From Microbacterium capsulatum (GTDB lineage Bacteria; Actinomycetota; Actinomycetes; Actinomycetales; Microbacteriaceae): a stretch of DNA of 64,000 nucleotides. The DNA lies in the NCBI RefSeq assembly GCF_030865425.1, contig NZ_JAVFCB010000008.1, forward strand, positions 158,465-222,464, in the 5' to 3' direction. This document shows positions 30,284 through 52,473 of the stretch, one piece after another. The translations under genes were made by a program, and so were the position numbers. The notes under the pieces were generated by a model. The model ran no database searches. It saw only the letters and a program-made list of their open reading frames with translations, and was not told where the DNA came from. Within the stretch, counting starts at the first letter, position 1. Every line of letters begins with the position of its first letter.

Positions 30284-32931
30284 GGATCCTCGGGCTCGCC
30301 CACCACGAGCACGCCCGCCGCGCGGATGTCACGGCTCGAGGCGCCCACGCGCACCTCGACCTCGCCGGCCGGGGTGACCCAGCCGTGCGTGGTGACGTCG
30401 AAGTACGAGGCGGCGCGACGGGGGATCCGCACCCGCACCCGCTGCGACTCCCCCGGCTCCAGGCGCACCTTGGCGAAGCCGGCGAGCTGATGCGGCGGCA
30501 TCGGCACGGGAGCCTCCACCCCGCCGACGTAGACCTGCACCACCGTGGATCCGGCCCGGGATCCGGTGTTCTGCACCGTCACGTCCGCGACGCCGACCGC
30601 ATCCTCCGATTCCAGGCCCGACACGGTCAACCCGGAGAACGCCCACGCGGTGTAGCCGAGCCCGTGCCCGAACGGGTAGGCGGGTTCGAGATCGCGGGCG
30701 TCGAAGCCGCGGTAGCCGACGAACACGCCCTCGTCGTAGAACACCTGCCCGCCCACGCCGGGATAGGTCCGGGCGGACGCCGCCGGGGTCTGCCCGAGCG
30801 AGACCGGCAGCGTCAGCGGCAGCCGGCCGCCCGGCTCGGCCGCACCCGTGAGCACCCGGGCCAGGGCGCCCCCCTGCGCCTGGCCCGGGTACCACGCCTG
30901 GATCAGCGCCGCCGGATCAGCACCCCACCCCGTGACGTCCACAGGCCCTCCGGTCATCAGGACGACGACGGTGCGGGGGTTGGCGGCGAGCACGGCGCGG
31001 ACCAGGTCGTTCTGCCCGTTGGGCAGCTGCATGTCGGGGCGGTCGTCGGCCTCGGCCTCGTAACTGCGCACCACGACGACCGCGACGTCCGCTGCGGCGG
31101 CCGCCGCAGCGGCCTCGGCGACCGCCGGCGAGAAGACGCCGGCCGGCGGCACCCAGCCCAGGCGCAGCTTGGCGCCGAGCAGGTGCCCCTGCGACGGGTC
31201 GTCGGCGCGGTACTCCATCCGGATCGCGTACTCGCGGCCGGCCTCGAGCCGCATCGGGATCTCGTCGATCGCGACGTCCGGCTGACCGCCGTCCCCGCCC
31301 CAGCCGTACGGGTGCGGTCCGGCGTCGGTCGGCTCGGCCGGAGCGAGCTCGGCCGGAGCGAGGTCGAGGACGTCCGCGGTCGCCCCGCGGCCCGACCGCG
31401 CGACGTCCGCCCCGTCGATCTCGAACGCGTATGTGCCGAGCGAGGTGATGACGAACCGGTAGGTGCCGGTCACGGGCACGGTGAGAGTGCCGGTGTACCG
31501 CACCGACATCCGGCCGTTCAGCTCGGTCGGCAGCTTCTCGTACCGGTGCGAGGAGGCGTTGAAGCCGGGGAAGTTGTGGAAGCCGAGCAGCAGCTCGATC
31601 TGCCCGTCGGTGCGGCGCACGAGCGGTTCGCCCTCGAAGGAGGCGTTCGTCCAGTACTCGGCGTGCAGGCCGACCTCGCCGTCCGGCGTGCGGAAGAAGC
31701 CGGATCCCACCGCGTCGGCGCCCGGGAGCAGGGCGCCCGGGGTGACCGGATCCGCCCCGTGCACGACCGCGATCCCCACGTCCTCGCCGAGGGCCGCACG
31801 CAGCCCGTCCAGGGGCGAGACGCCGCGGGTCGGGCGGACCTGCGAGCTGCCGCCGCCCTGCGCGCCGAAGCCGTCGACGTCGGGCCCGATCAGGGCGACG
31901 GTGCGGACGGGGGCGAGCGGCAGGATGCCGTCGTTGCGGAGCAGCACCATCGCGTCCTCGGCGATGCTCTGCGCGAGCGCATGGTGCCCGCCGACCGCGA
32001 ACTCCGCGACGCCGGCCGGGTTCTCCGGCTGGCCGAGCCCGACCATCGGGCGCAGGATGTTGCGCACCTTCTCGTCGATCACGGCCTCCGCCACCTCGCC
32101 GTCCTGCACCGCGGCGAGCAGCCGACCGCCCCAGAAGCCCTCGTTCGGCTGCTCCTGGTCCAGGCCCGCGTTCGCGGCCCGGGCGGTCGAGTGGTTGGCG
32201 CCGTAGTCGCTCATGATCCAGCCGCGGAAACCGAACTCGTCGCGCAGGATCCCGCGCAGCAGCGGCGCGTTCTCGCACGCGTACTCACCGTTCACGCGGT
32301 TGAACGCGCCCATCATGCTGGCCACGCCGCCCTCGCGGACGAGCGCCTCGAACGGCGGCAGGTACAGCTCGCGCATCGTCCGTTCGTCGATCACGGCGTC
32401 GACGCTCGAACGGTGGTCCTCCTGGTTGTTGATGGCGTAGTGCTTGGCGCACGCCTGCACGCCCTGGGCCTGGATGCCGCGCACCACCCCGACGCCGATC
32501 GCGGACTGCAGCGCCGGATCCTCGCCGAACGACTCGAAGGTGCGGCCACCGATCGGCACGCGCGCGATGTCGACCGCGGGTCCGAGCGACACGGTGTGGT
32601 CGGTCGCCCGGCACTCGACGCCGATCACGGCGCCGTACTCGATCGCGCGATCCGGATCCCACGTCGCCGCGAGCGCGATCGGCGCGGGCAGCGACGTGGC
32701 CCTCCCCCCGTGCACGTCGCCCTTGTTGATCCGCACGCCCGCGGGGCCGTCGGCCATCCGGATGCTCGGAACGTCCGCGCTCTCGACGCCGTCGGCGTAG
32801 AAGCCGAAGTCCCCGTTCAGGTCTCCGGTCACGAAGGCGACCTTCTCGTCGAGGGACATGCGCCCCAGCAGCTCCTCGACGCGCTCGTCGGTCGCCGCGG
32901 AATCCCAGTCCGCACCGGTCTGCTCAGACAT
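30238..32931 (-). CDS. GH3 beta-glucosidase-type glycosidase with inserted PA14 domain
   Basis: An 897-residue glycoside hydrolase family 3 enzyme. The N-terminal barrel has RMADGPAG, the KHYAINNQE substrate site and the nucleophile D242 in IMSDYG. The second domain carries ILPLAPVRTVALIGP and, between about 400 and 550, a PA14 carbohydrate-binding insertion (GTLTVPVTGTYRFVI, FEIDGADV). A C-terminal fibronectin-III-like domain follows YPFGHGLGYT. There is no signal peptide, so it is probably cytoplasmic. The last residues, EDPQRTATGTPSAAIDA, are encoded antisense to the Gfo/Idh remnant and are probably not ancestral. Likely substrate: a short beta-glucoside or xyloside. Confidence 0.92.
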   Translation of the reverse strand: MSEQTGADWDSAATDERVEELLGRMSLDEKVAFVTGDLNGDFGFYADGVESADVPSIRMADGPAGVRINKGDVHGGRATSLPAPIALAATWDPDRAIEYGAVIGVECRATDHTVSLGPAVDIARVPIGGRTFESFGEDPALQSAIGVGVVRGIQAQGVQACAKHYAINNQEDHRSSVDAVIDERTMRELYLPPFEALVREGGVASMMGAFNRVNGEYACENAPLLRGILRDEFGFRGWIMSDYGANHSTARAANAGLDQEQPNEGFWGGRLLAAVQDGEVAEAVIDEKVRNILRPMVGLGQPENPAGVAEFAVGGHHALAQSIAEDAMVLLRNDGILPLAPVRTVALIGPDVDGFGAQGGGSSQVRPTRGVSPLDGLRAALGEDVGIAVVHGADPVTPGALLPGADAVGSGFFRTPDGEVGLHAEYWTNASFEGEPLVRRTDGQIELLLGFHNFPGFNASSHRYEKLPTELNGRMSVRYTGTLTVPVTGTYRFVITSLGTYAFEIDGADVARSGRGATADVLDLAPAELAPAEPTDAGPHPYGWGGDGGQPDVAIDEIPMRLEAGREYAIRMEYRADDPSQGHLLGAKLRLGWVPPAGVFSPAVAEAAAAAAAADVAVVVVRSYEAEADDRPDMQLPNGQNDLVRAVLAANPRTVVVLMTGGPVDVTGWGADPAALIQAWYPGQAQGGALARVLTGAAEPGGRLPLTLPVSLGQTPAASARTYPGVGGQVFYDEGVFVGYRGFDARDLEPAYPFGHGLGYTAWAFSGLTVSGLESEDAVGVADVTVQNTGSRAGSTVVQVYVGGVEAPVPMPPHQLAGFAKVRLEPGESQRVRVRIPRRAASYFDVTTHGWVTPAGEVEVRVGASSRDIRAAGVLVVGEPEDPQRTATGTPSAAIDA

Positions 32932-51346: not shown

Positions 51347-51433
51347 GGCCACCGCCCTTGGTCCGCCCTCCCTCCGCCCTTCTCCCTCCGCCCCGTCCCC
51401 CTCCGCTCCGCCCGTCCTCCCCCCTCCCTCCCT

Positions 51434-51507
51434 CGGAAAACGGAGAGGGACTCGGCGTGTCGGAGCGCCCGCCGGGTGGGACACGCCGTGGGCCTCTCCG
51501 TTTTCCG
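51434..51507. repeat. Palindromic repeat (CGGAAAACGGAGAG family) between genes
   Basis: Perfect outer arms CGGAAAACGGAGAGG (51434-51448) and its complement (51493-51507) enclose inner arms GGCGTGTC (51454-51461) and GACACGCC (51480-51487). It is the same element as at 48902. Upstream, 51360-51430 is a C- and T-rich low-complexity stretch. Confidence 0.9.
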
Positions 51508-51636
51508 GCGCGGGTGTGAGGCCCGCGCTCGGGTGGAAAGCCGGCGCGATCCGTTTTCCGACGCAGGTGTGAGGCCCGCGCTCGGGTGGAAAGCCGGCGC
51601 GATCGGAGTTCCGGCGCGGGTGCTGAGGCCCGCGCG
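51498..51636. repeat. Tandem 53-bp repeat, about 2.6 copies
   Basis: A 53-base unit beginning CCGTTTTCCGGCGCGGGTG runs 51498-51550 and again 51551-51603 with two changes, then partly 51604-51636. It starts inside the right arm of the preceding palindrome, so the array probably grew from that arm. The array ends against the arsR-family stop codon. No gene lies in 51347-51638. Confidence 0.85.
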
Positions 51637-51638
51637 TC

Positions 51639-51962
51639 TCAGCCGCGGTCGAGGTCGTCGAGCAGCTGCACCGCCGCGCGGGCGTACTCGCCGATCCAGC
51701 GGTCGTGGATGCGCTTGATCGGCAGCGGCGCGAGGGTGAGGTGGCGCTCGCGGCCCTCGCGGCGGCCGATGACGAGCACGGCGCGTTCGAGCACCTTGAG
51801 GTGCTGCAGCACGGTCGTGCGATCGAGCTCGGGGAAGCACGCGCACAGCTCGCCGGTCGTCCGCGGTGCCTCGCGCAGCGCGTCCAGCATCCGGCGGCGG
51901 ATCGGCGCGGCGAGCGCCTTGAAGACGAGATCGTCGTCTTCGGTTCCGTCCGCGGATGACAT
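51639..51962 (-). CDS. ArsR-family transcriptional regulator
   Basis: A 107-residue winged-helix repressor (FKALAAPIRRRMLDALRE; ELDRTTVLQHLKVLERA). It has cysteines in ELCACFPE near the recognition helix, but the classical metal motif ELCVCDL is not complete, so the signal is uncertain. The divergent SRPBCC gene is the typical partner of this ArsR subgroup. Its start codon lies inside the shared palindrome and no leader is present, so it is predicted to be leaderless and autoregulated. Confidence 0.9.
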   Translation of the reverse strand: MSSADGTEDDDLVFKALAAPIRRRMLDALREAPRTTGELCACFPELDRTTVLQHLKVLERAVLVIGRREGRERHLTLAPLPIKRIHDRWIGEYARAAVQLLDDLDRG

Positions 51963-51980
51963 GTTGTAATCTTACAACAT
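51961..51980. promoter_or_regulatory. Shared palindromic operator with overlapping divergent promoters
   Basis: ATGTTGTAA-TC-TTACAACAT has perfect 9-base arms. Rightward, TAATCT (51967-51972) ends 6 bases before the ATG at 51979. Leftward, TAAGAT (51974-51969) ends 6 bases before the ATG at 51962. Both -10 boxes overlap each other in the palindrome centre and both start codons lie at its edges. Confidence 0.8.
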
Positions 51981-52473
51981 GTCTCAGAACGAAATCGCTG
52001 CGGACATGACTCCGCTCACCGAATTGTCCTTCTCCGTCTCGGGCTACGTGTCGCGTCCGCCCGCGGAGGTGTACGAGGCCGTCGCCGATCCGGCGCAGCT
52101 CTCGCGCTACTTCACGACCGGCGGCGCCCGGGGACGCCTCGACGCCGGCAGCGAGGTCTCCTGGGACTTCGCCGACTTCCCCGGCCGCTTCCCCGTCACC
52201 GTGGTCGAGGCCGCAGCCCCCGAGCGCATCGTGATCGAGTGGGCCGCCGCACCGGGCAGCAACGACAGCGGATCCACCCGCACGGTCTTCGAGTTCGCGC
52301 CCGTCGACGACGGCGCCCGCACCCTCGTCACGATCACGGAGTCGTCGTGGAGCGCCACGTCCGGCGGATCGAAGGCCGCGTTCGGGAACTGCATGGGCTG
52401 GACGGGCATGCTCGCGGCGCTCAAGGCGTGGGTCGAGCACGGGATCAACCTGCGCGAGGGCTTCTACAAGTAG
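51979..52473 (+). CDS. SRPBCC/AHSA1-family protein
   Basis: A 164-residue START/Bet-v1-like protein (GYVSRPPAEVYEAVADPAQL; VSWDFADFPGRF; RTLVTITESSW; TGMLAALKAWVEHGINL). The family has a deep hydrophobic pocket and binds or modifies small hydrophobic compounds. Genes of this kind often sit opposite an ArsR regulator, as here, but their substrates are mostly unknown. Start at the edge of the palindrome. It ends about 160 bases before the deoR-family gene. Confidence 0.88.
   Translation: MSQNEIAADMTPLTELSFSVSGYVSRPPAEVYEAVADPAQLSRYFTTGGARGRLDAGSEVSWDFADFPGRFPVTVVEAAAPERIVIEWAAAPGSNDSGSTRTVFEFAPVDDGARTLVTITESSWSATSGGSKAAFGNCMGWTGMLAALKAWVEHGINLREGFYK

Follow-up and report, generated by a model that had tools for sequence, protein, structure and literature searches.

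A 22-bp palindrome that may unite operator, promoter and start codons of a divergent arsR–SRPBCC gene pair

How are two divergent genes read and regulated when their start codons form the two edges of one short palindrome? This arrangement occurs in a 64,000-nt stretch of the Microbacterium capsulatum genome (NCBI RefSeq assembly GCF_030865425.1, contig NZ_JAVFCB010000008.1, positions 158,465 to 222,464), hereafter the window, whose numbering we use throughout. A gene encoding an ArsR-type repressor of 107 amino acids (arsR; minus strand, 51639–51962) has its start codon at the left edge of the palindrome, and a gene encoding an SRPBCC/AHSA1-type protein of 164 amino acids (here called SRPBCC; plus strand, 51979–52473) has its start codon at the right edge. 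We consider it very probable that the junction acts as a bidirectional promoter and operator that is leaderless on both sides and autorepressed by ArsR. We also favour, with noticeably more reserve, a stronger form of this claim, in which a single stretch of 20–22 bp would serve as the operator and also supply each gene with its −10 element, its transcription start point and its start codon, the −35 element of one gene lying, in many relatives, in codons 6–7 of the other; the start of transcription, the start of translation and repression would then be inseparable by mutation.

Architecture of the junction

The core of the junction, ATGTTGTAA-TC-TTACAACAT (51961–51980, no strand), is an exact 20-bp palindrome of 9+2+9 and the presumed operator. 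In the window genome the symmetry grows to 10+2+10 at 51960–51981 and is perfect at its full length of 12+2+12 at 51958–51983, where the outermost 2 bp on each side are coding and differ in one relative (L010). The 22-bp unit CATGTTGTAATCTTACAACATG (51960–51981, no strand) presumably holds the ArsR operator together with the −10 box and the start codon of each gene. The −10 box for SRPBCC, TAATCT, lies on the plus strand at 51967–51972 and that for arsR, TAAGAT, on the minus strand at 51969–51974 (read from 51974 to 51969), each 6 nt ahead of its ATG. The two boxes overlap by 4 bp on opposite strands (51969–51972) and thus share a −10 in the manner of a bidirectional promoter. Judged from this geometry, transcription would start on the A of the SRPBCC AUG at 51979 (plus strand) and on the A of the arsR AUG at 51962 (minus strand), which would set the two starts 17 bp apart. 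The −35 position for SRPBCC (51943–51948, plus strand) falls inside arsR codons 6–7 and here reads GTTCCG, a weak match.

A preliminary description of this DNA had reported that the two genes begin at opposite edges of an exact 9+2+9 palindrome, with a TANNNT box 6 nt before each ATG and the boxes overlapping at its centre. We read all of this directly from the letters, and the palindrome is longer than was stated; the starts do lie at the edges of the 9+2+9 core, and the start codons are contained within the 10+2+10 palindrome rather than standing beside it.

We searched for further copies of the 20-bp operator with up to 3 mismatches and found one occurrence in the window, against 0.00 expected, and one in the complete 4.0-Mb genome. 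A regulon with several operators of this type was therefore rejected, as no second genomic site appears at this threshold. From its position, symmetry and uniqueness, the site is presumably the operator of ArsR in an autorepressed divergon. The looser geometry CAT-N4-TA-N4-TA-N4-ATG matched the genome once, as did a reversed control. It also matched in 17 of 58 relatives, many of these matches being GC-rich and coding-like, and the reversed control matched many genomes too; geometry alone is thus not specific, and we did not use it as evidence. We regard conservation as the decisive evidence against chance.

Conservation among actinobacteria

We scanned one genome per species (84,980 species) by alignment to SRPBCC, which gave 181 confirmed relatives, of which the best 80 were kept. 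These include Microbacterium, Agromyces, Leucobacter, Brevibacterium, Tsukamurella, Rhodococcus, Nocardia, Streptomyces, Micromonospora, Isoptericola and others, and a divergent ArsR partner stands beside SRPBCC at all 80 of these named loci, the best 80 of the 181. Together with 8 loci from the bacterial family of the window genome (the window included) and 2 found through the site pattern (L041 and L047), they make up 90 loci, some of which are one genome drawn from two collections; L017 was left out. The site pattern, CA[TC]-N4-TA-N4-TA-N4-[AG]TG at the junction, takes no account of reading frame, and it fits 89 of the 90 loci. Removal of four loci with an identical site and identical 30-nt flanks on both sides left 85 non-duplicate sites with 29 distinct sequences; L077, which fails the pattern, is not among them. 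An alignment across related genomes had been named as a test of the preliminary description, with loss of the palindrome as the outcome that would overturn it, and the palindrome is kept.

Several columns that the pattern leaves free are invariant in 85/85 sites, namely GT at columns 4–5, AC at 18–19 and A at 20. Column 3 is T in 82/85 and C in 3/85, the C corresponding to a GTG start of arsR, and information per column drops steeply beyond the edges of the site. The edge codon is in frame with arsR at 89/89 loci and with SRPBCC at 88/89; in L016, the one exception, the N-terminus is in frame and a frameshift follows later, with the site kept. This holds across N-termini that differ in length from those of the window proteins by −2 to +43 amino acids for ArsR and −9 to +19 for SRPBCC.

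Samples drawn in other ways gave a similar picture. Among 249 genomes of the family, nine (the window genome included) carry a close ArsR relative (at least 67% identity) and eight of these hold the 22-bp site; the ninth, L017, lacks the site along with most of SRPBCC. Among 295 genomes of the class, ten (our own included) were picked by a close SRPBCC protein at an E value of 1e-25 or better, and eight of the ten (again counting our own) have the exact site. The RefSeq annotation of a Tsukamurella plasmid uses both edge start codons.

Leaderless starts and the −35 element

Leaderless genes lack a Shine–Dalgarno (SD) sequence and have a −10 box some 6 nt ahead of the start codon, and we found this arrangement for both genes in the window. 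An SD-like tetramer within 20 nt upstream of the start is present for 1/85 arsR and 0/85 SRPBCC genes, and a strict TANNNT stands 6 nt before the start of arsR at 71/85 sites. Exactly 12 nt ahead of the ATG, the reading frame is closed by a stop codon in 79/85 cases for SRPBCC and 46/85 for arsR, which excludes upstream starts at those sites. From the edge codon up to the conserved domain, no further ATG, GTG or TTG occurs at 57/85 sites for arsR, 68/85 for SRPBCC and 48/85 for both (one arsR in which no domain motif was detected was scored as a miss). The most frequent promoter motif of mycobacteria is TANNNT, or the looser ANNNT, placed shortly before the start point (PMC3898074, PMC6448022), ANNNT being the motif of Mycobacterium smegmatis (PMC6448022), in which 24% of transcripts are leaderless (PMC3898074, PMC6448022). 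The fixed distance from −10 to ATG, the in-frame edge codons, the near-absence of SD sequences and the scarcity of alternative starts support predicted leaderless starts on both sides, and with them the earlier proposal that both genes are leaderless.

Many relatives add a −35 element for SRPBCC. A TTG with an 18-bp spacer to the SRPBCC −10 occurs at 46/85 sites, and in any other column of the upstream 30 nt at 3/85 or fewer. This element falls in arsR codons 6–7, of which codon 7 is AAG in 36/85 and begins with A in 80/85, and the N-terminus of ArsR is variable apart from the codons that encode the −35; this suggests that the −35 of a neighbour can fix the N-terminal codons of a regulator. 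No comparable signal was seen for arsR: TTG reaches at most 6/85 at any spacer from 8 to 26, and a −35 for arsR was rejected. We also rejected the idea that the −35 compensates at SRPBCC sites lacking the T at −7, as there is no association (Fisher p = 0.26).

The preliminary description had both promoters, the operator and both starts fit into about 22 bp. The promoter boxes, operator and starts do so; with the −35 lying inside arsR in 46/85, the statement that everything sits within 22 bp does not hold for many relatives and may be true of the window genome. Its TANNNT box in both directions likewise holds in the window, and among the relatives for arsR far more often than for SRPBCC (counts below). 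The original observation is both correct and understated.

A related arrangement in alphaproteobacteria

The pair also occurs in an alphaproteobacterial version, in Paracoccus, Sulfitobacter, Roseibium, Tritonibacter, Sinorhizobium and Shinella, with ArsR proteins 50–63% identical. We read ten alphaproteobacterial plasmid loci out of 46 non-Tsukamurella plasmid records, the weaker matches falling outside this set. As in actinobacteria, the 20-bp palindrome is kept, as ATGTTAT-N5-TATAACAT, at 10/10 loci; arsR is in frame from the left edge at 9/10, a stop being met in L159, and a strict TANNNT stands 6 nt before the arsR edge codon at 6/10. The other side differs. The SRPBCC ATG lies 29–53 nt past the right edge, with an SD-like sequence recognized by eye in each leader, and a TTGACA (9/10) overlaps the arsR start codon. 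A −10 element past the palindrome is possible, with 4–5 of 6 matches at the best of five spacers.

The letters ACAT are kept here although they form no start codon, and those of the right half-site thus belong to the operator itself. The base that follows the right half-site is G at 2/10 of these loci, in contrast to the G required by the pattern that fits 89/90 loci. In an unrooted tree of 101 SRPBCC proteins, from which the frameshifted L016 was left out, one branch with a support of 0.996 splits the 11 SD-leadered proteins from the 90 others. This is consistent with one switch, in one direction or the other, between SD-leadered and edge-start forms on a conserved operator.

Predicted mechanism and alternative explanations

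In the mechanism that we propose, the 20-bp palindrome would be the operator for a dimer of the ArsR-type protein, and the overlapping −10 elements inside it would form one bidirectional promoter on which RNA polymerase could be seated in only one orientation at any time. Each transcript would begin on the A of the start codon at its edge, giving two leaderless mRNAs. Bound ArsR would cover both −10 elements and both start points and so switch off arsR and SRPBCC together, until some signal frees it from the operator. The −35 in arsR codons 6–7 of many relatives would bias the promoter towards SRPBCC, and arsR would depend on its −10 alone. The operator, with arsR starting on it, persists in the alphaproteobacteria (with one exception) and in one actinobacterial relative, and there SRPBCC begins farther downstream behind an SD leader.

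Several observations weigh against this mechanism. A consensus promoter scan of the region in the window returned none in either direction. Palindromes with 12-bp arms and a gap of up to 4 arise by chance at a mean of 0.15 per simulated 64-kb window (20 simulations), and a perfect palindrome of this arm length is, taken alone, only mildly improbable. Columns 1–2, 8–9, 14–15 and 21–22 and the choice of ATG or GTG at the edges are imposed by the search pattern, so that only the failure rate of 1 in 90 and the remaining columns count as support. L077 has ATA as its arsR edge codon, with an in-frame ATG one codon inside and the SRPBCC start still at the edge; the SRPBCC ATG of L167 stands 2 nt beyond the usual place; and in L168 (57% identity) SRPBCC is preceded by an SD sequence, GAGGAGG, and a short leader. 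From the left edge, arsR is still in frame in both L167 and L168. A strict TANNNT lies 6 nt before the SRPBCC start in just 33/85 sites and before both starts in 22/85, with neither in 3/85, and the SRPBCC start in many relatives could be weak or differently placed. In favour of the mechanism, the TA-N4-TA core means that 82/85 sites, all but the three with neither, offer both genes the looser ANNNT at 5 or 6 nt from the ATG. The predicted spacing of the two starts, 17 bp, also differs from the 18 bp most common at the bidirectional promoters of E. coli (PMC12825309, PMC10268837).

It could be that only arsR is leaderless from the palindrome and that SRPBCC is transcribed mainly through its −35 and a shifted −10, or by another route, with no true bidirectional promoter; we judge this unlikely. 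The disparity in TANNNT (71/85 for arsR, 33/85 for SRPBCC) speaks for it, as does the SD leader before SRPBCC in alphaproteobacteria and L168. However, the −35 lies exactly 18 bp from the shared TA in 46/85, which argues that SRPBCC uses that −10; the SRPBCC start codon is on the edge at 89/90 loci by the pattern and in L077 as well; and both boxes are full TANNNT in the window.

A second alternative grants the palindrome the role of ArsR operator only, its half-site happening to read CATG, and places the starts of transcription upstream in the opposite genes, with leaders that lack an SD sequence. Leaders of this kind are plentiful in M. smegmatis, where 53% of leadered transcripts have no SD (PMC6448022), the ACAT of the right half-site is kept in alphaproteobacteria without a start-codon role, making the edge partly operator, and the low SRPBCC count for TANNNT fits as well. 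We nevertheless hold this alternative to be quite improbable: the edge codons are in frame nearly everywhere despite variable N-termini, at 48/85 sites neither gene offers another start ahead of its domain, the distance from −10 to ATG is fixed, and the G after the right half-site, which only an ATG would require, is present at 2/10 alphaproteobacterial loci as against the 89/90 loci that fit the pattern. Chance compaction in one genome, without function, can be dismissed with near certainty: perfect palindromes of this kind do turn up at a rate of about 0.15 per simulated window, but the site exists in 29 distinct versions, spread over 85 non-duplicate loci of many genera, and this already refutes the idea.

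Comparison with known systems

Bidirectional promoters, defined by divergent starts 7–25 bp apart (PMC10268837), have been described in E. coli and Salmonella, where one pseudo-symmetrical −10 serves both directions and polymerase engaged one way blocks the other (PMC12825309, PMC10268837). In E. coli the divergent auto-repressor AcrR represses both RNAs from PacrA/acrR, and strong activation of one direction represses the other, basal activity being too low for competition (PMC12825309); at the junction studied here, too, competition between the directions would matter only when one of them is strong. Divergent transcription from a shared −10, the exclusivity of polymerase and a divergent auto-repressor are what the two systems would have in common, so that exclusivity at a shared −10 with a repressor blocking both ways has already been described (PMC12825309) and is not new. 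In the text compared, the difference is that here the start codons lie inside the element, both mRNAs are predicted to be leaderless and the palindrome is near-perfect across many genera. The word ‘leaderless’ has 0 matches in PMC12825309.

Divergent pairs of a regulator and its target are likewise known in actinobacteria. In prpD/Rv1129c both genes are leaderless, and closely juxtaposed divergent promoters are termed common (PMC3898074); crtR and crtE are separated by 200 bp, and the promoter of the crt operon is covered by bound CrtR (PMC5401885). The text compared describes no site that packs the operator and the −10 box and start codon of each gene into 22 bp. Other members of the ArsR/SRPBCC family share the gene pair and a presumed local autoregulation. 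At L022, L027 and L028 a palindrome of the GGTGACT..AGTCACC type stands between a TTGACA and a TATTTT or TAATTT box, followed by 6 nt and a GTG; these related arsR genes probably lack leaders and have their operator within the spacer of the promoter. In L022 and L028 SRPBCC is co-directional with arsR, and the palindrome occupies that spacer instead of spanning two start codons.

Each ingredient is thus known, from leaderless genes and a divergent leaderless pair to the shared −10 and divergent autorepressors; the full, deeply conserved fusion is new. In a literature search that left most subscription journals outside, we found no account of a site that fuses all these elements with both start codons, nor of the gene pair, and the papers found to mention ‘ArsR’ with ‘SRPBCC’ concern, in the text available, other topics. 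As a control element the site is natural and compact, and its 29 distinct sequences amount to a large series of natural mutants, for which the SD-leadered relatives with the same operator are a ready contrast. It makes testable how polymerase chooses its direction at a shared −10 when the start codons belong to the promoter, and whether leaderless translation permits such compaction.

Protein products, distribution and neighbouring sequence

The ArsR protein is a winged helix–turn–helix protein by its matches to PF12840 (43 bits, cut-off 27) and PF01022 (30.7 bits, cut-off 22), and it just reaches the cut-off of NF033788 (55.2 bits, cut-off 55). The SRPBCC protein belongs to the AHSA1 family (PF08327, 51.5 bits, cut-off 22.1), and a relative with a solved structure is 8es5, ‘Activator of HSP90 ATPase’ (E value 2.5e-14). 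Arsenic-type ArsR metalloregulators have a Cys-rich metal site, marked by a CxC motif ahead of the recognition helix. The window ArsR has C40-A-C42; across the 85 sites the first Cys is kept in 82/85 and the second in just 8/85, and a CxC metal site conserved across the group was rejected on this count. For the window ArsR itself, metal or thiol sensing would still be conceivable given its C40-x-C42.

The distribution of the pair is patchy. The exact pattern is present in 9 of 398 genomes of the family, SRPBCC at an E value of 1e-25 in 10 of 295 genomes of the class, and an alignment at 1e-20 in 3 of 296 genomes of the phylum, the last among the matches listed and with at most 12 candidates scored per genome. 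Matching plasmid records are mostly alphaproteobacterial. No phage record matches the SRPBCC protein, and an origin from phage was rejected on this ground. On the SRPBCC tree two copies from metagenome-assembled genomes labelled Deinococcota (L112) and Solirubrobacterales (L077) fall among actinobacterial sequences, which reflects either transfer or a binning error.

Some features of the surrounding sequence were noted in passing. Between arsR and a convergent gene for a DUF5107 protein, the window can form a long hairpin at 51430–51515, with a folding energy of −58.7 kcal/mol and a z score of −5.8 relative to shuffled sequence. It may be a terminator that works in both directions but lacks a T run, or else some structured element of the intergenic region. 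A tandem repeat with a 53-bp unit (51497–51635; 2.6 copies, 90% matches) ends just short of the 3′ end of arsR. A second perfect palindrome of comparable arm length, rich in GC, lies elsewhere in the window at 31089–31112. A similar AT-rich symmetric site, CATGATGTAAAATTACATCATG, was seen in L139 (positions 1019–1040 of that locus) at the start of a short open reading frame whose product resembles, by eye, a ribbon–helix–helix protein; the opposite side opens just 4 codons.
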